Below are positions 292 to 29,607 of a stretch of 33,290 nucleotides of DNA, piece by piece. The stretch spans positions 1-33,290 of the IMG/VR virus record IMGVR_UViG_3300036652_002418; one strand, given 5' to 3'. Below the pieces are notes generated by a model, which searched no databases, had not been told where the DNA came from, and was given only the letters and a program-made list of their open reading frames with translations. Each line of letters starts with the position of its first letter. Positions within the stretch are counted from its first letter, which is position 1. This DNA is from a virus. Both the position numbers and the translations under genes were made by a program.

Positions 292-840
292 TTAAAATAC
301 ATCCCAACTTGTTCCATTGTTCATGAACGTGCGTGAATCATACTGAGACAGAACCGTCGCATAGACATTACTTCCATCGACATTGTCCGATCCGCTTCCC
401 TGTATGGTAGTCCCATTTCCGCCCGTACCAACATCTTTCACGGTAATCTCAAGTCCCACCGGACTAGTAGAGCAGAGAGGAAGTGTATGAGTGAGACTTC
501 CGCCCGTGCTATTTGATCTCACCACACCGTCAGTTACGAGTAGAGTTGTATTCGTGGTGACAGTTCTTACTCCTCCACCTTGCACATTATCTACGGTCCA
601 AAGAACGTTGTTATTTGCGTCCTCAAGTACAAACTTGTAGGGCACGGCTGGATTAAGCCAAACGTCCGCATAACCATTGGCATCTAAAATGACGGGATTC
701 GCATTCGTTGTTCCGCTTGGATTTGAGTATGTCGCTTGTGGCGTTGTAGTTCCTGCCACATAGGAGAAAAGTTGACCTCCTGCGAGCGGGACTCCGTTTG
801 CATCAAAAAAGCGCTGCCTAAGAAGGGGTGAAAGATTCAT
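292..840 (-). CDS. Tail-spike/fibre protein with head-binding-like N-terminus and a duplicated tip domain
   Basis: The protein has 182 residues. The N-terminal 85 residues (FFDANGVPLAGGQL, then AGTTTPQATYS, NPVILDANG and LWTVDNV) match the head-binding adaptor found at the start of many P22-like tail spikes. It joins the fibre to the virion. Residues 91-182 are 69/92 identical, without gaps, to the last 92 residues of the fibre encoded at 6176-6760. There is no long beta-helix or depolymerase domain, so it is a short adaptor or fibre rather than a full enzymatic spike. The ATG overlaps the stop of the upstream ejection gene (ATGA), which suggests coupled translation. The adhesion role is inferred. 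Confidence 0.8.
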   Translation of the reverse strand: MNLSPLLRQRFFDANGVPLAGGQLFSYVAGTTTPQATYSNPSGTTNANPVILDANGYADVWLNPAVPYKFVLEDANNNVLWTVDNVQGGGVRTVTTNTTLLVTDGVVRSNSTGGSLTHTLPLCSTSPVGLEITVKDVGTGGNGTTIQGSGSDNVDGSNVYATVLSQYDSRTFMNNGTSWDVF

Positions 841-3140
841 GGCTTGCCCCAGCCTTTCTGAATTTGATTCATAACTTTTTTCATGGCTTGACTCCCAGAC
901 TTGAGATCGGAAGCTTGAATGAGAAGCTGTCTACCTTTGGGATCTTGAAGTAATCGTTGTGTAAGCGCGTTATCTTGAATTCCAAGTTTTTCAATGCCTT
1001 GCGCTACCCAATGGTCTTCGCCGCCCTTTTGCTGAATGATGCCTTTTACAAATTCTTTTGCTCCACTTGCTGGATCATGAGACTCCATCACGCTTCGAGG
1101 TATCACCACTTCACCAGGGCTTAGCTTTGCGGTAACGGAGTCATTCTTCTTATTGTTGCCGTGATACAAAGCTCTGCCAGGGACCATCCCGCCAGCTTGC
1201 ATACCTGGATATCCGATAATGTGACCTAGGGTCTGGCCTTGTTGTTGTTCATTATTTGATGGAGGCTGTGGATGGGGCTTAGGTGCCTTTTTTTCAGGTT
1301 CAGGATCTGAATCCGGATACCCGATCAACTGTCCGAGTGTTTTTTTCTTTGTATCTTCAACTAGACCGCCATCGGCGTAGTTGGTGTTTCCTGATGTGTT
1401 GTCTGGCTGCTGATTAGGCGGACTTGCAACGTTCCGCAAAGAAGCTTTACCTCCGATACTCTCAGCCTTAGCTCCCTGAAGGGCAGCGTTGAATGCACTT
1501 TGACCCTCGGGCGTTTTTAGAATTTGATAGGCCCGCTGAATTGTTGCATCAGTAAGATTTCCGGTAGCCCCTGCGATTTTCTGGATTGCTGCAACAGGAA
1601 TTCGTCCTGCCTGGATTCCAAGCTTAAGAGCCATGGGACTCGTTGCGACCGCTGCGATTCCTCCCGCGATAGGGCCGCCAAAGGCTTGCCCAACGATTCC
1701 GGCCTTCAGTGCGCGTTCTACACCTTTACCGTTTGTGTCAGCGGAGGATAGACCTGGACTTGCGAAGCGCTTCGCGGCTGCATATTGCTGAGCGCCGCTT
1801 AGCATGTCTGCACCGGCTACATCACCTAGTTGCTTAAGATCAGCCGCATTTTTAGCGTTTAGTCCGTTTCCCGCTCCCGCAAGGGCAGCATCAGGATTGC
1901 CAGGCGCAATGAGGTTTTTATTCATTTTGTCTTGGATGTCATGGAGCCTAGAAAGCTCATTATTGGCATCCGCAACCGTGGGGGACATCGTGTTTACGAT
2001 CTGCCTTGCTTGAGCGGCCCCGTTCTTGGCCGCAATTTGGGCGTCCTTTCCGGGAACAAAAATCTGACCATCCTTCATGTAGGAGCCAGTTCCCCTGTCT
2101 TGAAGGAATTGCTTGATGTCGAACATTTCTTTAGGTGTAACGTTCCCGTTGGCATCAGCTAGTTTTCCAATCCGGTCAGCAAGGTCATTCACCTGATTCA
2201 CTTCTTCGAACCGAAGGCTCGAGTTCATGCGATTTTTCACCTGATTAAGTGCATCAACAACCGGTGCAATGGGCACTACTTTCTGATCAGGAAGCTTATT
2301 AAGCGCGTTGCCAACCTGCTGTCCGAGTTGAGCGCGTCGTGCACGAACCGAATCTTGAAACCCTTGCCTAATCTGATTGGCAGCTCCTGAGATATCATCT
2401 CCGTGATCAGCAATGAGCTTTTGAACCTGAGGATATTGCTCGATGTAGGTTTTGATTTCTTGCTCAGGAACGCCGGTCAGGACACTTCCTAACTTTGAAA
2501 CCGCCTTGGTTCCCGCTGTGCTTGCCGTGCGCCCTAAAGCAGTCGCTCCTTCGCCGATAGCATCCGCTGACTTCGCCACCGATCCTACGATCCCCTTTGC
2601 AACATCTCCTACCGGGACATAGGTCATAGGATCAGCTGCCACATTGATTCCAGTTCCAACAATGGCAGCGGGGCTTGCAGATACGGCGTTTTCAACTGAA
2701 CCAGGCATGGCCTTATCGGCGATAAAGCCTAAGGGCCCGCTCTTAATTGCAGCGGAAGCTAACTTCTGTGCATTAGGAGAAAGAAGCGCATCTGTTGAAA
2801 AGCCTGCTTTTGCAGCGATGTCCTTTCCAGTGGGAGCGAGATTTGGATCTGATCCAAATTGATTCTTAAATGCGCTCATCGCGCCCGATGCTCCGCCGCC
2901 ATTCTGAAGGCTTGCGATCGCAGCGCGAGTAGGCGCGCCACCATAGCTATCAATAGTTTGGCCTGCTTGAGTGATGCCGCCTAAGATTGCACGTCCGGAG
3001 TGAGTAAGAAATCCTGGGCCGCTATCCTTTTCACCTTCAGCGGGGAATTGATTCCAATCGAATTTCCCCTTTCCTTGAGCGATAGGTTGCGCGGCGTCTT
3101 CCGTTGGGTATTGACTCCAATCAAATTTAGCGGCGCCCAT
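837..3140 (-). CDS. Large virion ejection protein (P22 gp16-position, internal virion protein)
   Basis: This 767-residue protein is the last of three ejection-type genes, in the place of P22 gp16 (609 residues). It is rich in Ala, Gly and Gln and mostly predicted helical. The N-terminus carries two copies of a short motif, KFDWSQYP and KFDWNQFP. Two related motifs, TLGQLIGYP and TLGHIIGYP, lie near residues 600-645. The segment AGGMVPGRALYHG then KLSPGEVVIPRSV (about 650-690) is common near the C-termini of phage tape-measure and internal virion proteins. It probably enters the cell with the DNA to build the channel through the envelope. The gene starts one base before the preceding stop ends. 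Confidence 0.75.
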   Translation of the reverse strand: MGAAKFDWSQYPTEDAAQPIAQGKGKFDWNQFPAEGEKDSGPGFLTHSGRAILGGITQAGQTIDSYGGAPTRAAIASLQNGGGASGAMSAFKNQFGSDPNLAPTGKDIAAKAGFSTDALLSPNAQKLASAAIKSGPLGFIADKAMPGSVENAVSASPAAIVGTGINVAADPMTYVPVGDVAKGIVGSVAKSADAIGEGATALGRTASTAGTKAVSKLGSVLTGVPEQEIKTYIEQYPQVQKLIADHGDDISGAANQIRQGFQDSVRARRAQLGQQVGNALNKLPDQKVVPIAPVVDALNQVKNRMNSSLRFEEVNQVNDLADRIGKLADANGNVTPKEMFDIKQFLQDRGTGSYMKDGQIFVPGKDAQIAAKNGAAQARQIVNTMSPTVADANNELSRLHDIQDKMNKNLIAPGNPDAALAGAGNGLNAKNAADLKQLGDVAGADMLSGAQQYAAAKRFASPGLSSADTNGKGVERALKAGIVGQAFGGPIAGGIAAVATSPMALKLGIQAGRIPVAAIQKIAGATGNLTDATIQRAYQILKTPEGQSAFNAALQGAKAESIGGKASLRNVASPPNQQPDNTSGNTNYADGGLVEDTKKKTLGQLIGYPDSDPEPEKKAPKPHPQPPSNNEQQQGQTLGHIIGYPGMQAGGMVPGRALYHGNNKKNDSVTAKLSPGEVVIPRSVMESHDPASGAKEFVKGIIQQKGGEDHWVAQGIEKLGIQDNALTQRLLQDPKGRQLLIQASDLKSGSQAMKKVMNQIQKGWGKP

Positions 3141-4409
3141 TTACTTAACCACCTTCCCGCCAGCTGCAATTGCTTCGCCTTTCATCGCAGCAGGAATGAG
3201 TCGACTCTTTCCATCAGGACCCATCATCCTCACCATTCCTTGTGGGGCCGGAGGCGGTGAAGTGCCAGCTTGCGCAGATTCACCGCCCGCTAAGCCTAAA
3301 GCATTTGAAACCATAGTATTGATTCCGCCCATGATTCCTCCGCGTTTAGAGGGCGGGACATACGGTCCGATTTGATCCTGAAGTTGCTGTGACGCTGCGA
3401 AAGTATTGTCGACTGCAGGCTCATAAGTCATGGTCGGATCATTAACATTTGCCTGTTTTTGTCTGGCCTGAAATCGTTGTTGGATTCCGCGCAGAGACTG
3501 TACATTTGCTCGAAAGGTTGAACCGGCATCGCGCATGAGATTGTCTCGAGTAGCTTGATCAACTCCCCCGGAGAGAGCCTTTGATGCCATATTCTTCCAT
3601 GTGTCCGATGCTGATTGAGACTTAGTTAATTCTTCGAGCGAATTCACATCAGGCGCATTCGGGAATTTAATTTTGAATGCATTGAGAACAAGGGATGCAT
3701 CACCTTGAGGGCTCGGATGGTTATAATTATCGATCATCTGTTGCATTGCCATCTGTGATGATCGAATAGGTTTGGCTTGCTGATCATATTGACCTGTGAG
3801 CTCCGCATTGGGTGAGCGCGACCCGTAGAGGGATGCGTTGACTTCCGCTGGCACCTTAGCCAAATTGAGCTGGGCCATTTTTTGAGCAATGCCTGCGCTA
3901 GTATTCATACCGTATTGAACCGATTGCTCCATTGGCCCGCGTTCAAATACAGGGCTAGCATTTGAGGTATCGACTCCCATCGATTTTAGCTGGGCAATAA
4001 CATTTGGATACATTTTGGCAGCTACACTGTCTGGCTTAGATAGCAACAACTGATATGCAGGAAGGGTTAAGCTAAGTTGCTGATGTGCAGCCGCGAGCTG
4101 CGCAGTCTGCGCCTCTGCAGCCTTCTTGTTCTGTTCATCAAATTGACTTTTCATTTGCATGGCTGCCATGGGATTTGTCTTCCCTAGCGTCGACAGCAAT
4201 CCTGCCTGATTTAATTCTCCCGTATTTGGATCGGTATTTTGAGCCACTGCCTGCCTCATCGCAGCCTGTTGCCGCATTTGATAACCCATTTGGGCCTGCT
4301 GCATTCCTAGGGAGCTTAACCGCATTGCGTTTTCGGCAGCCGTAAGTGGCGAAGGTATATTGATCTGAGGTGCTTGAACGTTGGAATAAATGCTTGCGTC
4401 TATTGCCAT
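3141..4409 (-). CDS. Virion ejection protein (P22 gp20-position)
   Basis: The product has 422 residues, close to P22 gp20 (471). It is rich in Ala, Gln and Met, with long amphipathic helices such as the Gln/Met-rich stretch at residues 30-55. The ribosome site AAGGAGGAAAAC lies just before the ATG at 4409. Its position between the gp7-like gene and the large ejection gene, with 10-bp and zero-bp spacing, and its composition support a role as an internal virion protein released into the host during DNA delivery. I recognise no enzymatic motif. The assignment rests mainly on gene order and composition. Confidence 0.7.
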   Translation of the reverse strand: MAIDASIYSNVQAPQINIPSPLTAAENAMRLSSLGMQQAQMGYQMRQQAAMRQAVAQNTDPNTGELNQAGLLSTLGKTNPMAAMQMKSQFDEQNKKAAEAQTAQLAAAHQQLSLTLPAYQLLLSKPDSVAAKMYPNVIAQLKSMGVDTSNASPVFERGPMEQSVQYGMNTSAGIAQKMAQLNLAKVPAEVNASLYGSRSPNAELTGQYDQQAKPIRSSQMAMQQMIDNYNHPSPQGDASLVLNAFKIKFPNAPDVNSLEELTKSQSASDTWKNMASKALSGGVDQATRDNLMRDAGSTFRANVQSLRGIQQRFQARQKQANVNDPTMTYEPAVDNTFAASQQLQDQIGPYVPPSKRGGIMGGINTMVSNALGLAGGESAQAGTSPPPAPQGMVRMMGPDGKSRLIPAAMKGEAIAAGGKVVK

Positions 4410-4419
4410 GTTTTCCTCC

Positions 4420-5286
4420 TTACCCTTCTAGTCCGAAAAATGTACTTGGAGATGAACCGTAGTTATATCCTAAGGTTGCTCCTCCTCCTCCTCCAATTGC
4501 AGCTGGAGCTGCCTGGGCAGTGTTGTTCAAAGCTGATAATGTTTGATAACCCACTGCGGCATTTCCTAGTCCACTGCCTATGCCCGATAGAGCGCTTCCC
4601 CATGCGTTCCCTGAAGCTATTTGAGATGCAGCTTGGGCATTCGCTGATCCAGTCATAAGATTGCCAATGGCTCCAGCAGTCCCTGTGGCGATATTTCCAA
4701 CATTAGTGGCCATATTCATTCCGGCTTGACCTATTTGACCTGCGGCAGTCTGTCCCGTTCCAGCAAGCGAAGCGAGTCGATTATACTGTGTATTTTGATT
4801 GTTCATGAAGCGATTGTAAGCATTCTGATATTCATTTGATGCGGATCCTTGGGCATAATTAGTCAAATCCTTCAAGGTTCCGCCACTCATGAGGGAGCCT
4901 CGGGCAGCCGCTGAACGCTCCAAAGCTTGTTGCCCCTGCTGGAGATCAAACTGATAAGCAGGGTCCATGTTGTTTTGAAAATCCTGCTGCGTGAAACTCA
5001 CTGGCTGTGCTGCCATGGAAGACATCTGGGAAAGAGCACCTTTCCCTGCCTGAAGCCACGGAGCGATGTTTTGTTGTTGCTGATTAAACTCATTCTGCTG
5101 CACAGCGGTCGCATTCTGCGAGGCCTGGTACTGCAGTTGAGCCGCCTGAAGTGCAGCTTGAGATTGTTCGTCTGCTGCTTTACCTGCCGCGTTACTAGAC
5201 ACCGCAGCTCCGGCTAATCCGAGACCACCGCTAATCACCGCGCTGCCAATTAAAGCTCCGCCTATTCCCCCAATGAGAGCTGACAT
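4420..5286 (-). CDS. DNA transfer / ejection protein (P22 gp7-like)
   Basis: The protein has 288 residues. It starts with a glycine/alanine-rich hydrophobic segment (GGIGGALIGSAVISGG). A Gln-rich helical domain follows, then the hallmark stretch of the phage DNA-transfer family: DPAYQFDLQQGQQALERSAA near residue 107, the start of GSLMSGGTLKDL, and NAYNRFMNNQNTQYNRLA. P22 gp7 (229 residues) is ejected into the periplasm and membrane during infection. Here the gene occupies the same position, upstream of the two larger ejection genes, and overlaps the end of the SET-domain gene by 25 bases. The hydrophobic N-terminus probably inserts into the host membrane. Confidence 0.82.
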   Translation of the reverse strand: MSALIGGIGGALIGSAVISGGLGLAGAAVSSNAAGKAADEQSQAALQAAQLQYQASQNATAVQQNEFNQQQQNIAPWLQAGKGALSQMSSMAAQPVSFTQQDFQNNMDPAYQFDLQQGQQALERSAAARGSLMSGGTLKDLTNYAQGSASNEYQNAYNRFMNNQNTQYNRLASLAGTGQTAAGQIGQAGMNMATNVGNIATGTAGAIGNLMTGSANAQAASQIASGNAWGSALSGIGSGLGNAAVGYQTLSALNNTAQAAPAAIGGGGGATLGYNYGSSPSTFFGLEG

Positions 5287-6179
5287 TCTGCTACCCTCCC
5301 TTTTCCGGCTAATAATAATTCCGGACGCGTATTAACAAATGATAAATAGTAATCATTTAAAATTTCATTGCCAGGTTCAATATCTTTCATGGCGATTAGA
5401 TCGACATCGCCGCTTTCCCGCATAATCATTTCCCCATTTGGATTTCCGCTATGATTGCAAAAGCGACCCATTGGTGTTCTTTTTCCTTGAATTCTTGCAC
5501 GGGCAATGAAGCTATCTTTCTCAAATCGTTTAGTCGCGAATACTCCAAGTCCATGGATAACGGATTCCCCAATGCGAATCCCATCAGTATCGGTTGGAAA
5601 GCTAATTTGATCATCGGGATGCTCTGATAGTGCTTTCACTTCTTCTGGAGAAAATCCTAGAAAATGAATCGCATCCTGAAAGTGTCTAGGAGAAGCGAGA
5701 TAAGCTTCATCAAAATTCTCAGCGAAAAGACGCGCTTCAACTTTTTTTAAATCTCGTTCGTCACTAGGATTTTGATGGACAGTAATCCAAATAGAATCTT
5801 CATGGGCATAACCAACTCGTTTAATTCCTGGCAATGATTTGACCACAGTTGAAGCCGTGAGTGTTTTCATTCCGTTTTCAGTCCATACGGTAAGTTTTCC
5901 TTGGCTAAGGATATTGAGATGCGCAGTTTTATGTATCTTTCCTGTGACTATCATTCCTTTTGGAATTAATGCTTCGCGCATATAGATACCGGGTTCAAAA
6001 TGGTGAGTGGTCTTGAATGATTCGCCGGGGATATATCCAGGCATTGCTTGCATCGCGGCCTCTAGTCCTAAGATAAGCTCACGCATCTCGCGGATCGACT
6101 TCTTTTCCTTACCTAGAAGTGAAAGGGCATTTTGGATTTTCTGGCCAGGTGATTCTTGAATAAGCGGAGAAGTATTCAT
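5262..6179 (-). CDS. Cupin-SET domain fusion, putative protein-lysine methyltransferase
   Basis: The protein has 305 residues. The start is the ATG at 6179, which overlaps the upstream fibre stop (ATGA). Residues 60-135 look like a cupin-type beta barrel (VTGKIHKTAHLNILSQGKL). Residues 200-280 carry the signatures of a SET domain: GIRIGESVIHGLGVFATKRF, then FCNHSGNPNG (the NHS..PN substrate/SAM pocket motif) and IEPGNEILNDYY (the catalytic-tyrosine motif). SET enzymes use S-adenosylmethionine to methylate lysines. The gene sits where P22 has small assembly genes, between a fibre and ejection proteins. It may modify virion proteins or be packaged and act on host proteins. Enzymatic activity is inferred from motifs only. 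Confidence 0.75.
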   Translation of the reverse strand: MNTSPLIQESPGQKIQNALSLLGKEKKSIREMRELILGLEAAMQAMPGYIPGESFKTTHHFEPGIYMREALIPKGMIVTGKIHKTAHLNILSQGKLTVWTENGMKTLTASTVVKSLPGIKRVGYAHEDSIWITVHQNPSDERDLKKVEARLFAENFDEAYLASPRHFQDAIHFLGFSPEEVKALSEHPDDQISFPTDTDGIRIGESVIHGLGVFATKRFEKDSFIARARIQGKRTPMGRFCNHSGNPNGEMIMRESGDVDLIAMKDIEPGNEILNDYYLSFVNTRPELLLAGKGRVAECQLSLGE

Positions 6180-6760
6180 ATCACATCCCAACTCGTTCCA
6201 TTGTTCACGAACGTCCTTGAGTCATACTGGACGAGCACTGTTGCATAGGTATTGCTTCCGTCGACATTGTCACTCCCACTGCCTTTGACTGACGTTCCGA
6301 ATCCTGCCGATCCTACGTCTTTCACCGTGATCTCTGTTCCTGTCGAAGTGCTGGCGCAAGCAGGTAGAGTGTGCGTGAGGCTTCCACTTGTACTATCTGA
6401 GCGAACGAGGCCATCGGTTGAAACTAACGAGGTATTGGTTGTAACCGTGCGAACATTGCCTGGTGGAATGTCAGAGAGAGAAAGGACATTCCACGCAGGC
6501 GTCGCACTTTGTGACCCAGTGCCTGTTTGAGAAAGAAACTTCTTAGTTGCCGCGGTATTTCCAACCACGCGAAAAGGGTTCCCATCTATACCCCCATAGA
6601 TTATGTCCCCAACCGTAGTCATCGGATTGATGAGTACCTGGCCACTATTTCCACCGACTCTTGCAAAAAGTTGTCTAAACCAAGCCGTCCAAGGGACTGT
6701 AAGAAGTCCCTTTCCAGTAGTAAGCGGCGTCTGATACGGGACTGGAGGGACGTCAGCCAT
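6176..6760 (-). CDS. Tail fibre / tail-needle-position protein
   Basis: This 194-residue protein follows the gp10-like gene, the place of the P22 tail needle gp26. Its N-terminus contains WTAWFRQLFARV, then the fibre repeat PMTTVGDIIYGG and FLSQTGTGSQSATPAWN, which is typical of phage tail fibres. Residues 103-194 are a fibre-tip domain shared, at 75 percent identity, with the tail-spike-like protein at 292-840. The stop overlaps the start of the SET gene. It is probably a trimeric fibre at the tail tip. Whether it acts as the needle or a receptor-binding fibre cannot be decided from sequence. Confidence 0.75.
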   Translation of the reverse strand: MADVPPVPYQTPLTTGKGLLTVPWTAWFRQLFARVGGNSGQVLINPMTTVGDIIYGGIDGNPFRVVGNTAATKKFLSQTGTGSQSATPAWNVLSLSDIPPGNVRTVTTNTSLVSTDGLVRSDSTSGSLTHTLPACASTSTGTEITVKDVGSAGFGTSVKGSGSDNVDGSNTYATVLVQYDSRTFVNNGTSWDVI

Positions 6761-8918: not shown

Positions 8919-9098
8919 CTATTTCCCCTGCTTTTTCTTTTTTGCGATCTGTGGGTCTGGCTTTTTCCCAGGACAGGTTTCTATTCCATATTCGGCAGGA
9001 CTATCGAACCATCCTATTCCCAGTTCCTTTTCTTCTTCCAGGCACTCAACAATGGTGGCCTCTTTTTCAGGGCTATATTTCCATTTTGGATATTTCAT
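8919..9098 (-). CDS. Small hydrophilic phage protein (59 residues)
   Basis: An ATG at 9098 overlaps the stop of the glycosyltransferase gene (ATGA). It is preceded by a good ribosome site, GGAAGGAAAATT. The frame gives 59 residues, starting MKYPKWKYSPEKEATIVECL, with GWFDSPAEYG in the middle and a Lys-rich tail (KKKKQGK). It ends three bases before the gp4-like gene begins. Coupling on both sides makes it very likely real. Function is unknown. Its place just before the head-tail adaptor suggests an assembly role. Confidence 0.75.
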   Translation of the reverse strand: MKYPKWKYSPEKEATIVECLEEEKELGIGWFDSPAEYGIETCPGKKPDPQIAKKKKQGK

Positions 9099-9781
9099 AA
9101 TTTTCCTTCCGATTGGGTGATCCCATTTTTTGTTTTAAGCCAGTTTCCAATATGTCCTGGATGGGCTGTTGGATTGAAGTCCCAGTGAACTAAAGTGAGC
9201 TCTGGATCAAGATAGATCTTCCCGCCAGATTCCGCCCATTCCTTGCAGAATCCGGCATCATCGCTATAAAGAGCTCCATCCTTGAAGTACATTTGAAAGT
9301 AGGCATATGCCTTAGATCCCCAATGCTCATACTCTCGACCTGGATAATGCTTCCTGAAGGACTCAAACACATTTCGAGAAAGAGAAAGAAATCCTGTCGG
9401 GAGCATTGCCACCTCCAGAAGCCCTAGTTCATTGGCATAAAGTTCGGACTTTGGAAGCCAGTTGATCGGATAACATTCATCCCTACTCTTATAGCGGTAG
9501 CATCCCCCCACAAAATCCACTGGCATGTGAGCAAGCTTGATAATCGATCCAGGCAGGAACGTGAGATCAGCGTCTAGAAAAAAGAGCCTGTCGCAATCAG
9601 ATTCCAGGAACATTTGAACCAGTTGATTTCTACCCTGAGCTGGTACGCTACAAGAAGGCAAGAAGTTCACACGAAGTTCGTCGCCAACCCCATTTGCAAC
9701 AGTAGTCTCTTCACACAGACATTTGACGGTCTGCACTGGGAGCTTTCCATCGTAAACGGGAATGGCGACGAATATCTTCAT
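9095..9781 (-). CDS. Glycosyltransferase-like protein (GT-A fold) inside the structural operon
   Basis: The protein has 228 residues. It begins with a Rossmann-type strand (MKIFVAIPVYDGKLP), has the acceptor-loop pattern PAQGRNQLVQMFLES, and the DxD metal/nucleotide-sugar motif as FFLDADLTF (D70-A-D72). Later come GGCYRYKSRD, ALYSDDAGFCKEWAESGGKI and LVHWDF. All fit family-2-type GT-A glycosyltransferases. No membrane segment is seen, so it should act in the cytoplasm. It lies between the decoration protein and the gp4-like gene, so it may glycosylate a virion protein. The substrate is unknown and this role is inferred from location. Confidence 0.75.
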   Translation of the reverse strand: MKIFVAIPVYDGKLPVQTVKCLCEETTVANGVGDELRVNFLPSCSVPAQGRNQLVQMFLESDCDRLFFLDADLTFLPGSIIKLAHMPVDFVGGCYRYKSRDECYPINWLPKSELYANELGLLEVAMLPTGFLSLSRNVFESFRKHYPGREYEHWGSKAYAYFQMYFKDGALYSDDAGFCKEWAESGGKIYLDPELTLVHWDFNPTAHPGHIGNWLKTKNGITQSEGKL

Positions 9782-11377: not shown

Positions 11378-12332
11378 GCCTCCGTTTTTTCAATTGCTCC
11401 CTACGAAGTGCTTCGTATTCCGTTTGGGATAAGCCTTGATCATAGATCGATTTTGCAACCGATCCTTTTCCGCCTGTTCCAACTGGCGCAATCGGAGTGG
11501 GAGCTTGGGTTATTTTCTTTTCTGTCCCAGAACGTTTTGAAGAATTGAGTTTGACCTCGAATCTGCCAACCTCACGAGCGCAAACGGTAGGAGGAAGTTT
11601 TGATATTCTCTCAAATTCCCCTGGATTTTTCGCAAGCTCGTAAGCCAGCTCCGGACCATTTTCAGAATTGAGGATAATGTCCTGAAGTGTCGGCGAAAGT
11701 GGAATGTGGTTCACTTCCTCGATCACTTCTTGGAAATCAGGAGTCTTGGTAGAAAATGCCTTCGCACGTTCACTATAAGAAGTCACAATCTTGGACTGTG
11801 CTTCATCAAAACGCTCTTTTGCAGCCCTTTGATCGCGTTCCCTGAGTTTCTGTTCAGTCTTCCAATCGGTGAGAGCTTCGACGTACTCAGCGTGAGTCTC
11901 GAAGTTTTCAGGCTTTGGCTTACCATCAGAAGTAAGAGATTGAACCAAAGGCTTAACCTCAGGCTCCATTTTGGGAGCGCCAGCGCCCTTAAGCGCCTGC
12001 TGCTTCCAATACTCGAGCTCTTGGTCTTTAGCGGTAATCTTTGCACTCAGTTTGTCGATTCTCCGCTGAAAGCCTCCCTTTTTTTTCCCTGACTCTTTTT
12101 CCTCTAATTCGCTTTCTTCATTTGTTTCTGGTTTCTTTTCTCCTTCGGGGTCCGATTCCGAAGCATTATTTTGCTCAGAAGGCTTTTCAGCCTCCGGCGC
12201 GGATGATGTTGACGACTGTTCCTCGGATTCACCTGATCCTTCTACGGGTGCCGAGATTTCAGCAGCAGGTGCTGGAACTTGACTCGCAGGAGGTGTTTGA
12301 GGTTTCTCGTTAGAACGCACTTGAATGCTCAT
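11367..12332 (-). CDS. Scaffolding protein (P22 gp8-like)
   Basis: The product has 321 residues (P22 gp8 has 303). It is strongly charged and helical. An acidic, Ser/Pro/Glu-rich N-terminal third is followed by coiled-coil segments (RIDKLSAKITAKDQELEYWK and onward). The C-terminus is a Lys/Arg-rich short helix (YEALRREQLKKRRQAG), which in P22-like scaffolds binds coat protein. It overlaps the portal gene by four bases and precedes the coat gene. It should direct procapsid assembly and then leave the head. Confidence 0.85.
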   Translation of the reverse strand: MSIQVRSNEKPQTPPASQVPAPAAEISAPVEGSGESEEQSSTSSAPEAEKPSEQNNASESDPEGEKKPETNEESELEEKESGKKKGGFQRRIDKLSAKITAKDQELEYWKQQALKGAGAPKMEPEVKPLVQSLTSDGKPKPENFETHAEYVEALTDWKTEQKLRERDQRAAKERFDEAQSKIVTSYSERAKAFSTKTPDFQEVIEEVNHIPLSPTLQDIILNSENGPELAYELAKNPGEFERISKLPPTVCAREVGRFEVKLNSSKRSGTEKKITQAPTPIAPVGTGGKGSVAKSIYDQGLSQTEYEALRREQLKKRRQAG

Positions 12333-14527
12333 GGTACTGGTGGCTCCATGGGTGTACCCGGTGCTGGCCCGCCGGTAGGCCCTGAACCCACATGGCCCAT
12401 TCCAGCGTAATTTCCGCCATCGGCTCCTTGTGGATTAAAATCGGGTGGAACATCAATCGGTTGATTCATGTTCACAAGTTTTAAACGTTGGTTGATAGCG
12501 CCCACTTCTTCTTGGAGAAGGGCGATACTGGACTGAGTGCCAAGCTTTGCAAGGCTGATCTCGATTTCTGCTTGAAGCTTTGCAAATTCAATTCGCTCTT
12601 TCGACTCAAGATCAAGTTTCTTTGTTTCAATAATCTTTGTTGTCTCATTCAGTTCTTGGCTCAATTGCTTAACCATCATTTGCATCTGCTGTATCTGAGC
12701 CTGAACCTGAGGAGGAATCTTCATTGCCTTAGGATCATTTTGAAGCTGAGGTGGAAGCGTGAGCCTAAGTCTTTCCGCCATTTCCTGAGCCCCTGGCCAA
12801 TCCATGTTCTTAATCATGAGATCACCGATGATCTGCATGAGCTGCGGATAGGCGCGGACTGCTTCAGTCATGGCGGCTGAAGCTTCTTGCCGCTTAGACG
12901 CGAAACTTGGACCCGTGTCAATGGTCACTCCGTAACGACCGGCATCGAGTGAGTAGATTCGATCTTTGCCGGTTTCGTCTTGGAATTGTTCATTCACTCT
13001 CACCATCTTCTGAGTGCCATCATCGTGAATAATCCGAGCAGTGCGAGGGGTGTCGTAGATCTTTGGGATAATGTCGACTAGTATTCGCCCCGCATGCTTG
13101 ATGGATCGATGCAGGTTGTCGACGAAATGGAAATTAGAATTTTGAGACTGTCCCTGCCTACTTTGAATTGCAACTCCACTTGCATCAGGAGTCTGCTGGC
13201 CTAATGCTGCATCGAAAACACCAGTTGTCGCTTTAAGGTCATCGGCTGCAAGCATCGAGGCTTGCGTGATTGCTTGAGTTGCAGGTTCAAAAGTTTGGCG
13301 TTGAGGAGGCGGCGCTTGTTCTCCTGCAATTGTCGTAGGTTTGTAATAAAGAAAAGCATGGTTCTTTCGGTTTGCACCTGCCCAATCCTTTTCATAACCC
13401 TCAAGTTGTCCTTCAGCTACAATGAATGGAGTTCTAGGAGCAAGCGCAATTGTTTCAGTCTCAGCTGATTTCCAGTAATTGTACATCCGCTGCGCGTCTT
13501 TCGCGTTTCTGATGACACTTTCTAAAATGCGCCTACCGTTCACAAAGATCTCGGCCCCGTAAACAGGGATAATCGGAATGTAAGAACCTGGCCATTCGGT
13601 TTCTTCAAGAATCTCAATGCCGTTAATCTTTCGCCATTTTACGATAGGAATGTGTGCGACTTTAGAACTAACAACACTTGCATCAAGATGTGCAGCCTGC
13701 GCCTGCATTTGCTTTTGGGCTAACTCCCCGTCACGAACCACTTCGCCTGTATTTAAGAGATGAAGAATCTGAGTTTGTTTTTCTATAGAGAAATATTCAG
13801 CAATCCTTGCACTATCGCCTTTGACCCATCCCGGTTGATCATTGCCAATGGCGCTCCAATCGGCCTCGGGAGCTGCAAGCTTCGAATCTGGAAAAGACTC
13901 TTTGTAATCATCTTTTGAAATGTCATCGGTAATGAATGCCCATTTCATGTCAGAGCCATCTGGCTCCTGAGAGTAGGGATCAATGAAGACAGAGAGCGGA
14001 TTTCTGATTCGCTTAATGAAAGCCTCTAGATCAAAGCTTTCAGGCCTTGCAAAGTCAGTCACGATTCTAAAATAGCCAAAGCCATTTGTGACTGCAGATT
14101 CGAATGCAGTATCGTAGGCAGCCTCAGCATTTGAATTGTATTCGATATGGCGAATGAGGCCTTGAATGATTTTTGCGGTGTCGGAATCCGCTCCGTCTGT
14201 AACCGGGTGAACCTTGATTGCAGGACGATTCTGCCTTTGATCATTGGTTATTTGCTGAACGAATTGCGGGAGTCTATTAATCACTAGGCAAGGGCGTCCA
14301 TCGCGTTCGCGCTCTTGTTGGATCGTTTCAGGCCACTGGATTCCTGCGCGGAATTTCAAATCATCGAGTGCTTGCCTTCTGATATCAGATTCAGCTTCTT
14401 CGGCAAGGGTGAGTCTCGTTCGAGCGACTCTTAGAACGTCCTCTTCGGACATAGAAGTATCACCCTCGCTGTCCTCAGAACCCAATGCAGGTCTTGTTAT
14501 CTTTTCTTCGATGACAATGGTGGCCAC
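12329..14527 (-). CDS. Portal protein (P22 gp1-like)
   Basis: The product has 732 residues (P22 gp1 has 725). Family features include WPETIQQERERDGRPCLVIN, the start of RLPQFVQQITNDQRQNRPAI, FIDPYSQEPDGSDMKWAFI, and a C-terminal coiled-coil barrel region (residues 600-700). It forms the dodecameric ring through which DNA is packaged. The start is GTG at 14527 with no clear ribosome site. An 11-base motif shared with the small-terminase upstream region lies 33 bases before it. The Gly/Pro-rich C-terminus is variable in this family. Confidence 0.9.
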   Translation of the reverse strand: MATIVIEEKITRPALGSEDSEGDTSMSEEDVLRVARTRLTLAEEAESDIRRQALDDLKFRAGIQWPETIQQERERDGRPCLVINRLPQFVQQITNDQRQNRPAIKVHPVTDGADSDTAKIIQGLIRHIEYNSNAEAAYDTAFESAVTNGFGYFRIVTDFARPESFDLEAFIKRIRNPLSVFIDPYSQEPDGSDMKWAFITDDISKDDYKESFPDSKLAAPEADWSAIGNDQPGWVKGDSARIAEYFSIEKQTQILHLLNTGEVVRDGELAQKQMQAQAAHLDASVVSSKVAHIPIVKWRKINGIEILEETEWPGSYIPIIPVYGAEIFVNGRRILESVIRNAKDAQRMYNYWKSAETETIALAPRTPFIVAEGQLEGYEKDWAGANRKNHAFLYYKPTTIAGEQAPPPQRQTFEPATQAITQASMLAADDLKATTGVFDAALGQQTPDASGVAIQSRQGQSQNSNFHFVDNLHRSIKHAGRILVDIIPKIYDTPRTARIIHDDGTQKMVRVNEQFQDETGKDRIYSLDAGRYGVTIDTGPSFASKRQEASAAMTEAVRAYPQLMQIIGDLMIKNMDWPGAQEMAERLRLTLPPQLQNDPKAMKIPPQVQAQIQQMQMMVKQLSQELNETTKIIETKKLDLESKERIEFAKLQAEIEISLAKLGTQSSIALLQEEVGAINQRLKLVNMNQPIDVPPDFNPQGADGGNYAGMGHVGSGPTGGPAPGTPMEPPVP

Positions 14528-14800: not shown

Positions 14801-15562
14801 ATGAAGCGTATCGTAAGCTACTCAGGCGGGTTAGGTAGTTTCATGGCAGCGAGGCTGACAGTGGGCAAATACGGGCCGGTTAATTCCCTGCTCGTATTCA
14901 CTGACACCAAGACAGAGGATGAGGACCTATATCGGTTTTTAGAGGAAACGCGGATCTATTTCCAAACCGAGATGCATAGGTTGGCGGATGGGCGCAATAT
15001 CTGGGAGGTCTTCAACGACGTTAAATTTCAGGGCAATTCACGTATCGACCCTTGTTCGCGAGTGCTCAAGCGTGAGTTGTTCCGTGGATGGGTTGAGGAC
15101 AATTACAAGCCAGGCGAGTGTGATATTGTTTTCGGTATCGGGAAGTCTGAGGCGCATCGAATGAAAGCCATTACAGAGCGTTGGGCACCTTACACGGTGT
15201 CTGCACCGTTAATCGCGAGCGGAACGACTAAAGAGGACATTGAGGACGTGCTCGACAAGGTTGGAATAGCGCCGCCACGGCTGTATGAGATGGGGTTTCC
15301 GCACAACAATTGCGGAGGATTCTGTGTGAAGACAGGGCAAAAGCAGATGGCGCTACTGCTTAAGAAGCTGCCAGAGCGGTATCGTTGGCACGAGGAACAG
15401 CAAGAGAAGCTGTTTAAAATAATTGGCAAGCGACACGGGTTCATTCGCAGAACGGTGGGAGGAGAGATGGTTTACTTAGGGCTGAAAGAATTTCGTGAGT
15501 TACTTGAAAGCGGTGCAGCACCGGATATGTATGACAACGCGGGTTGCGGGTGCTTCGCATGA
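14801..15562 (+). CDS. PP-loop ATPase, PAPS-reductase/DndC-like family
   Basis: The protein has 253 residues. The PP-loop SGGLGS (residues 8-13) binds ATP pyrophosphate. FTDTKTED follows the second strand, and DPCSRVLKRE (C85) is the motif seen in phage PAPS-reductase-like and DndC-like proteins. Cysteines at 171, 175, 249 and 251 could hold an iron-sulfur cluster. Members of this family activate or transfer sulfur or adenylate substrates; the actual substrate is not evident. It is on the plus strand, opposite to all surrounding late genes, with its own ribosome site (GGAGGGG), and looks more GC-rich than they do. Most likely it is an inserted cargo gene. Confidence 0.75.
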   Translation: MKRIVSYSGGLGSFMAARLTVGKYGPVNSLLVFTDTKTEDEDLYRFLEETRIYFQTEMHRLADGRNIWEVFNDVKFQGNSRIDPCSRVLKRELFRGWVEDNYKPGECDIVFGIGKSEAHRMKAITERWAPYTVSAPLIASGTTKEDIEDVLDKVGIAPPRLYEMGFPHNNCGGFCVKTGQKQMALLLKKLPERYRWHEEQQEKLFKIIGKRHGFIRRTVGGEMVYLGLKEFRELLESGAAPDMYDNAGCGCFA

Positions 15563-25147: not shown

Positions 25148-26272
25148 TTACCGGGTATTTTCATGATTTTGCACCTTTTTCACAAATTTTCCACGAAACA
25201 CATTCCTGAACTGATCCCTCATTTCAGTTTCGATATGGGCATATACGCGTCTTATCGTTGGCTCCGATGCGCCTACAATTTTACGAACAGCAACTTCCGG
25301 CATCCCTGCTTTGAGCATATTCGTAATCGCAGTGTGTCTTAGATCGTGGAAGCGCAACTGCAATTTTGCCGCTTCTCTTACTTTCTTCCAATGATGCCGA
25401 TTATCGTCTTGAGGCTCATTAGGATCGATTGGCTGCCCTTGGATATTGGTGTACCAAGCCGGGAATAGGTAATCGCCTGGTGCCTCATCATAGGCGATCT
25501 TTAAAAGCGAGAATACATCTTCTGCTATTGGGATAGGAACTTCTCTAGGGCGTCTAATCTTAAGCCTGTTTGGATCGAGGTTAATCTCGCGCTTACCCAG
25601 GTCAATCTCATCCTTCCGTAGGTGAAGAATTTCTGAGATCCTCATACCCATATAGACAGCCATCATAACCTGCAAATAAAGCCTCGGGTATTTTGACGCG
25701 GCTGTAAGAAGTCTAGCTATCTCTTCGTCTGCCAAATATTTACCGACAGGTTCATATGCTTCATTGAGTTCGAAGTCCTTCTTCGTGAAAATCTTCTTTA
25801 GCCATCCCTTATTCGATGCGCGCTTCAATGTCATGACAAGGTAGCGCCTATCGTGGGCGAGCTTCCGTTCTTTTTTCGATTTTTGATCGAGTTGATACTC
25901 TGCCCACACCTCTTCGTAGTGACGCTCCATCCTGTCTATAAACGGGCAATTCTTTTCGAACCAATGTCTCAAATGGCCATCGATAATGAACTTAGCTTGT
26001 TGATAAGTGCTTTCATGCTTAGTCGATTGAATCTTAAGAACGAGATCGAAGGCTTCGCCGAACCGATATCGCTTCTTCGTGTCCAAGTGAAAGCCATCAA
26101 CGCCCATCGCAGCTGCAATTATTTTCTGCGCACGATCCTTTGCTAGCTTGAAACTCTTGGTCTTCAAACTTCTTTCGTGAAACCGCCCTTGAACCGTTCC
26201 CCTGAAGTAGAAAGTTTTATTGGCGGAATGAAGCTTAATTTGAGGATGTTCAGTCTCTAAGTATCTACTCAT
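25148..26272 (-). CDS. int: Tyrosine-type site-specific integrase
   Basis: The product has 374 residues. An N-terminal arm-binding-like region (FRGTVQGRFHERSLKTKSFK) and SAM-like core-binding domain (residues 70-160) are followed by the catalytic domain. Catalytic residues are R211 (YMGMRISEILHLR), H309 and R312 (FHDLRHTAI), and the nucleophile Y344 (TIRRVYAHIE). It would recombine attP with the host tRNA-Pro gene. The start overlaps the excisionase stop by 4 bases. The gene ends beside the attP core, the usual layout. Confidence 0.93.
   Translation of the reverse strand: MSRYLETEHPQIKLHSANKTFYFRGTVQGRFHERSLKTKSFKLAKDRAQKIIAAAMGVDGFHLDTKKRYRFGEAFDLVLKIQSTKHESTYQQAKFIIDGHLRHWFEKNCPFIDRMERHYEEVWAEYQLDQKSKKERKLAHDRRYLVMTLKRASNKGWLKKIFTKKDFELNEAYEPVGKYLADEEIARLLTAASKYPRLYLQVMMAVYMGMRISEILHLRKDEIDLGKREINLDPNRLKIRRPREVPIPIAEDVFSLLKIAYDEAPGDYLFPAWYTNIQGQPIDPNEPQDDNRHHWKKVREAAKLQLRFHDLRHTAITNMLKAGMPEVAVRKIVGASEPTIRRVYAHIETEMRDQFRNVFRGKFVKKVQNHENTR
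25177..25197 (+). other. Candidate integrase arm-type site, right
   Basis: The 21 bases starting TTTTCACAAATTTTCCACGA are 19/21 identical to 24956-24976. This copy lies inside the 3' end of the integrase gene. Confidence 0.45.
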
Positions 26273-29121: not shown

Positions 29122-29607
29122 ATGAAAACACCCTTACTCGAGGACTTCAAAAAGCTGCTTGAAAGTGTCCTAGAGAAACAAGGACTTACCTACCAGGATT
29201 TGGTCGATAAAATCGGATGGCATAGAAATAGATTAGGAAAGTATTTAAGCGGTGAGAGAGGCATTGGCCTGCCCGAAATCGAAGAGATTGCAAAAGCACT
29301 GGGCGTCAAACCTCATGCATTGATCTCAGATAAGGAAATCGAACCAATTGTGTTGAAGCCATCTCCGGGAGAGGCCTTAGAAATGCTCAAGGACATTCTC
29401 GATAGTTACGAGAAAATCCCGCACTGGCTTAGAAATGACCTTGAGCAAAAGGATAAAAAGTCACTACAAGGACTCTTCGATATTCTAAAGGTCTTTGCCG
29501 CCCTTGATGACTCTCAAAAAGCTGCCGCCATTCAATTTATGGAAGCCCTGGGTAGGGGGCTTTCCGCCTCCTCCGCCATTGATGATGATCAAAAGAAGAG
29601 CAAGTAG
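29122..29607 (+). CDS. HTH repressor (XRE family), candidate lysogeny repressor
   Basis: The product has 161 residues. The HTH is GLTYQDLVDKIGWHRNRLGK, followed by YLSGERGIGLPEIEEIAKAL. A helical C-terminal part (DLEQKDKKSLQGLFDILKVF, then DSQKAAAIQFMEALG) probably dimerizes. It has no LexA-type Ser/Lys protease, so RecA-triggered self-cleavage is not evident. The ribosome site AAGGTGCTAG is next to the ATG. It diverges from the minus-strand HTH gene across about 75 bases with repeated TATTTGCAA/TATATTGCAA boxes. Confidence 0.75.
   Translation: MKTPLLEDFKKLLESVLEKQGLTYQDLVDKIGWHRNRLGKYLSGERGIGLPEIEEIAKALGVKPHALISDKEIEPIVLKPSPGEALEMLKDILDSYEKIPHWLRNDLEQKDKKSLQGLFDILKVFAALDDSQKAAAIQFMEALGRGLSASSAIDDDQKKSK

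Follow-up and report, generated by a model that had tools for sequence, protein, structure and literature searches.

What is a gene for a putative methyltransferase doing in the middle of a phage tail and ejection operon, and which protein would its product modify? This question is raised by the IMG/VR virus record IMGVR_UViG_3300036652_002418, of which positions 1 to 33,290 form the whole stretch of DNA analyzed here, in the following called the window. A sequence-only reading of the window had described one of its proteins as a fusion of a cupin-like and a SET domain, encoded between a fibre gene and the ejection genes of a P22-like operon, and had proposed that it modifies virion proteins, or that it is packaged and delivered to methylate host proteins, and that its gene replaces small assembly genes found there in P22. 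Here, we follow up these proposals with domain and structure searches, a survey of homologues and their neighbors, and the literature.

Genomic Context of the Cupin-SET Gene

The cupin-SET gene is located on the minus strand (5262..6179) and encodes 305 amino acids when counted from its ATG, while the mechanical open reading frame call begins at a TTG at 6191. As the stop of the upstream gene overlaps its ATG by 4 bp (ATGA, 6176-6179) and its own 3′ end overlaps the ATG of the downstream gene by 25 bp, it is a coupled operon gene within a tightly packed late operon. Directly upstream, a small fibre-like protein is encoded (6176..6760, minus strand), which matches only families of unknown function (phrog_37034), followed by a head-closure protein Hc3 resembling gp10 of P22 (6760..8196, minus strand; phrog_578, E 5.8e-126) and, further away, by a P22-like portal protein (12329..14527, minus strand; PF16510, E 1.1e-183). 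Directly downstream lies the gene of a gp7-type DNA-ejection protein (4420..5286, minus strand; phrog_598, E 1.5e-34), the candidate substrate, and next to it the second (3141..4409) and third (837..3140) genes of the ejection module, both on the minus strand and assigned to the gp20 and gp16 positions by position only, with no family match. The location between fibre and ejection genes is confirmed, the fibre being the small fibre-like gene, and the replacement of two P22 genes, 26 and 14, which lie between genes 10 and 7, is supported.

The ejection module is flanked by two fibre-like proteins (292-840 and 6176-6760, both minus strand), which have a C-terminal domain of 105 amino acids in common that is 70% identical. 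Between the portal and terminase genes, a PAPS-reductase-like gene is found on the opposite strand as a moron (14801-15562, plus strand; phrog_424, E 1.6e-38), and between the coat and adaptor genes a phrog_1574 protein is encoded that by eye has the look of a GT-A glycosyltransferase (9095-9781, minus strand). The phage is probably temperate, since it encodes a tyrosine integrase (25148-26272, minus strand) and a Cro/C1-type regulator (29122-29607, plus strand). Searches of the window for tRNAs and Rfam families found none, and an NCBIfam search returned no match.

Domain Architecture, Family and Conservation

An AlphaFold model built on a 54-row alignment is confident (mean pLDDT 88.4) and contains both folds: the N-terminal half is modeled as a fold of the cupin superfamily and the C-terminal half as a SET fold. 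The cupin domain, an RmlC-like jelly roll with an N-terminal helix (residues 33-160; 5700..6083, minus strand), resembles solved RmlC-like cupins including 3fjs, tm1459 and KdgF in Foldseek (E about 1e-6, probability 1.00), and the cupin-only families phrog_12032 and phrog_24280 match residues 33-167, while no cupin family was matched in the Pfam scan. A helical linker assigned by DSSP of the model (residues 144-187; 5619..5750, minus strand) leads to a compact SET domain (residues 196-285; 5325..5594, minus strand), which is recognized by PF00856 (E 4.5e-10; 40.3 bits at a cut-off of 22.4) and, in Foldseek, by its similarity to SETD8 and vSET (E 7e-6 to 8e-6). The first reading of the sequence as a cupin-SET fusion was therefore right, including the cupin that Pfam misses here.

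By profile match the protein is not peculiar to one phage, and it belongs to the large, uncharacterized phage family phrog_34170 (residues 21-278, E 5.8e-52, profile positions 3-272 of 296), which has the whole cupin-SET architecture without any difference and is without a described function. A tblastn search of 50,697 phage records detected the same two-domain protein in five distinct phages, i.e., Pseudoalteromonas phage PH1, Rhodoferax phage P26218, phage zth2-2 and two Manatee Spring genomes, one of the latter bearing the annotation "pbcV-1 histone H3-lys 27 methyltransferase structure." From a profile search of viral contigs, of which the best 80 of at least 576 relatives with cupin and/or SET domain were used, and from 14 added bacterial genome contigs, 93 full-length cupin-SET proteins were extracted, and 51 non-redundant members of these served to assess conservation. 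In the papers searched, neither a published description of the family nor a report on activity, substrate or proteomics of any member was found; those on P26218, PBR31, X14 and VvAW1 contain nothing on the function of the cupin(-SET) gene, and reviews on crassviruses and on tails, consulted for phage SET or cupin virion proteins, were false leads.

The SET signatures quoted in the sequence-only reading (G210-F214, N242-N248 and E272-Y278) are present, and they are intact throughout the 51 non-redundant members. This holds for motif I, GxGxF (G210-F214; 5538..5552), motif III, RFCNHSGNPN (R239-N248; 5436..5465), and motif IV, EILNDY (E272-Y277; 5349..5366), all on the minus strand: S206, G210, G212, R234, T235, G238, R239, N242, P247, E272 and Y277 are invariant, H243 and N248 are kept in 98% and D276 in 84% of the members. 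In SET enzymes these positions are known as SAM-binding and catalytic sites, and the SET domain is therefore presumed to be active. The pooled pN/pS ratios of 0.14 for the SET and 0.17 for the cupin domain, estimated from 18 close pairs, point to strong purifying selection on both. One part of the canonical domain is almost gone: the HMM alignment leaves about 10 query positions for the SET-I segment between motifs I and III, compared to about 44 residues in MLL1. In typical SET domains, SET-I contributes to the channel for the lysine. That the domain works like a SET lysine methyltransferase is the favored reading, in view of its sequence motifs and in spite of the nearly missing SET-I. For the cupin domain, the canonical metal-binding motifs, G(X)5HXH(X)3,4E(X)6G and the second motif, were looked for by reading; the HxH...E pattern is absent from the window protein, and only H87 (88%) and E127 (94%) are conserved cupin residues in the 51 members. 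With these motifs absent, a canonical metal-dependent cupin enzyme was rejected as an explanation, and the protein is probably not a canonical metalloenzyme cupin.

The Slot Before the First Ejection Gene

The survey of neighbors proposed along with the sequence-only reading places an ejection gene directly after the cupin-SET gene in most homologues. In 78 of the 93 (the viral members coming from the best 80 of at least 576), a gene of the gp7 family, whose HMM also finds gp7 of P22, starts -25 to +2 bp from the cupin-SET end; 13 are without a recognized gp7 and two run into the contig end. Cupin-only relatives occupy the same slot in the P22-like phages BA3, X14 and VvAW1 and in phages of the PH1/VPMS1 type, and in the T7-like phages SnaP-R1 and VAC_51 the cupin gene is flanked by the genes for tail tubular protein B and for the first of the internal virion proteins. 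An exception is the T7-related phage H4/4, in which the cupin gene is upstream of the portal gene.

P22 itself fills this slot with gp26 and then gp14, and T7 with gp13. The genes of P22 gp14 (PF11039) and T7 gp13 (PF11090) resemble the cupin-SET gene in lying directly ahead of the one for the first ejection protein (gp7 and gp14, respectively), but are unrelated to it in sequence. Neither family matched the window protein in the Pfam scan, and none of the 22 cupin-bearing records that were searched contained either of them, a pattern consistent with non-homologous replacement. P22 gp14 is annotated as a head morphogenesis or virion stability factor; its model (pLDDT 43), with a best GNAT match at E about 0.5, is too low in confidence to inform, and hhalign comparisons of gp14 and gp13 with the GNATs of the slot gave no signal with shallow profiles. 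Independently, a paper on a cobavirus described a GNAT encoded next to internal virion proteins, equated it with T7 gp13 and suggested a role in virion morphogenesis (PMC6775973).

Further occupants were revealed by a census of 80 loci selected by gp7, which covered the slot before gp7 only and used a query derived largely from cupin phages without dereplication: 44 cupins, nine cupin-SET proteins, nine GNAT acetyltransferases supported by Pfam or by a GNAT profile seeded from the slot itself, seven short proteins that look like GNATs by eye (those scanned gave no Pfam match above the cut-off), and 11 loci in which the slot held a different gene or none. The nine slot GNATs end at most 10 bp from the gp7 start. 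In three loci, an acyl-carrier-protein-like gene and then a GNAT directly precede the ejection gene (L219:3285-3985, L220:3252-3910 and L296:2967-3868), the assignment being based on a PP-binding match in L219 and L220, one above and one below the Pfam cut-off, and made by eye in L296; such genes are possibly an acyl-ACP-dependent acyltransferase pair. In L259 (2999-3996), an Asp/Arg beta-hydroxylase (PF05118) and then a GNAT come before the ejection gene, and in L295 (2959-4777), a locus beyond the nine, the GNAT, cupin and gp7-type genes overlap consecutively. The presence of GNATs at this position hints at a local target common to the occupants of the slot.

SET and cupin domains are also found apart. 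In a locus from Paraburkholderia ferrariae (L132, 7674-9121), they are encoded by two adjacent overlapping genes, and two further loci (L130 and L131) contain SET without cupin, the SET gene of L130 preceding an ejection-like gene as judged by eye. Conversely, the cupin-only phrog_12032 and phrog_24280 proteins of BA3, VvAW1, VPMS1 and X14 have the same cupin domain in the same slot as the window protein but no SET domain, and no SET gene was found elsewhere in the searched cupin-only records, those of these four phages included, nor in P22 or T7. Since cupin-only, SET-only and split versions exist, the SET domain appears as a module that was repeatedly gained or lost on a cupin platform. In agreement with this, a tree of 99 cupin domains needs 10 changes of the SET label, of which at least five are forced by well supported branches, and the window cupin is nearer to several cupin-only proteins (56-66% identity) than to most cupin-SET proteins.

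Proposed Function and Alternative Explanations

As best explanation, to which we give about an even chance, we propose that the cupin-SET protein is an assembly-time factor of short-tailed phages, the SET domain of which would methylate a protein of the virion, and most likely one of the ejection proteins. The cupin half is the conserved platform of the slot and could bind to ejection proteins or to the portal/tail vertex, and the SET half would act as a SAM-dependent lysine methyltransferase, as its fold and active-site residues suggest, on the ejection protein translated alongside. Methylation would take place before or during entry of the target into the procapsid and might adjust how soluble these proteins are, how they pack or how they insert into membranes, given that they have to unfold, pass the portal and refold; in related phages the same job would be done by the cupin alone or by a GNAT acetyltransferase. 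Modification of a virion protein, as originally suggested, is plausible and now better supported. An alignment of gp7 contains no SET-specific conserved lysine, the best column having lysine in 42% of SET-coupled versus 50% of cupin-only gp7 proteins; gp20, gp16, the portal or yet another protein could be the substrate instead. Against this explanation stand, besides the gp7 result, the dispensability of SET, relatives with cupin domains of 56-66% identity doing without it, and the near absence of SET-I; moreover, the PHROGs labels "short tail fiber" and "adhesin" would make the cupin a part of the virion.

The near loss of SET-I and the sufficiency of the cupin-only form in many phages could also mean that the SET fold serves for binding without being an enzyme and that, with the cupin, it assists tail or ejection proteins as a chaperone or plugs them structurally, in line with the annotation of P22 gp14. 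We consider this unlikely, since GxG, N242, E272 and Y277, i.e., SAM and catalytic residues, are invariant and further occupants of the slot also have transferase or hydroxylase folds. If the domain is an enzyme, it might act in the infected cell on a ribosomal, translational or envelope protein of the host, being made late and merely riding in the operon. Viral SET enzymes can target cellular proteins, as PBCV-1 vSET does, and gain and loss of SET would suit an accessory function, but the fixed adjacency to the ejection gene across divergent phages (the 78 of 93 above, viral members from the best 80 of at least 576), the fusion of SET to a domain that itself occupies the slot in most loci seen, and the common local target suggested by the slot GNATs make a host target a rather improbable reading.

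The proposal that virions contain the protein as a minor component and eject it, so that it modifies host proteins as infection begins, draws on the location of its gene within the ejection operon, the naming of the cupin part as a tail protein by PHROGs and the annotation of the cupin-only X14 protein as structural. An adhesin function, with the cupin as short tail fibre and SET as accessory carbohydrate- or protein-binding tip, would likewise rely on the PHROGs names of phrog_12032 and phrog_24280 and on the adjoining fibre-like gene. This we regard as very improbable, as T7-like and P22-like phages encode the cupin although they possess fibres or spikes besides it, the VvAW1 paper gives it merely as hypothetical PHA00672, and we know of no adhesin with a SET fold. 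For the tail-fibre name, no experimental or mass spectrometric basis was found in the literature searched, which counts against packaging as well. Delivery into the host became less likely because mass spectrometry of virions of the T7-like phage phiPsa17 detected all structural proteins, gp14-16 included, and residual scaffold but not the gp13 homologue that fills the slot (PMC4517105); on this evidence, which applies by analogy only, packaging is a distinctly unlikely explanation.

Returning to methylation during assembly, the range of enzyme folds that occupy the slot is a more interesting result than the single protein. It raises the possibility, which we regard as tentative and with more doubt than confidence, that short-tailed phages reserve the position ahead of their first ejection gene for post-translational modification. 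Unrelated enzymes, namely SET methyltransferases, acyl- or acetyltransferases of the GNAT type, in some cases paired with an acyl carrier protein, and an Asp/Arg hydroxylase, would have been recruited to it repeatedly, in many cases together with a cupin as adaptor, and would modify proteins that have to be threaded out of the capsid and inserted into the host envelope.

Significance and Comparison With Known SET Enzymes

Judged from sequence, this large and undescribed family probably modifies a virion protein during assembly. If so, a function would be provided for an unexplained assembly gene of podoviruses at the position of P22 gene 14 and T7 gene 13, and the old question of how ejection proteins stay soluble yet ready for membrane insertion would become directly testable by mass spectrometry, for which the cultured phages PH1 and P26218 carry cupin-SET genes. 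A phage that uses a SET enzyme to methylate virion or ejection proteins of its own would also be, to our knowledge, the first such case.

Among known enzymes, vSET of PBCV-1 (PDB 3kma/1n3j) is likewise a small viral SET domain with the same fold and motifs; however, this protein of an algal virus stands alone, retains SET-I and has histone H3K27 as substrate, whereas the phage domain is fused to a cupin and has nearly lost SET-I. The SET domains of SETD8/KMT5A and MLL have the GxG, N-H-S and E..DY motifs and the structural match in common with cupin-SET, but these enzymes act on histones and have a complete SET-I as well as complete C-flanking parts.
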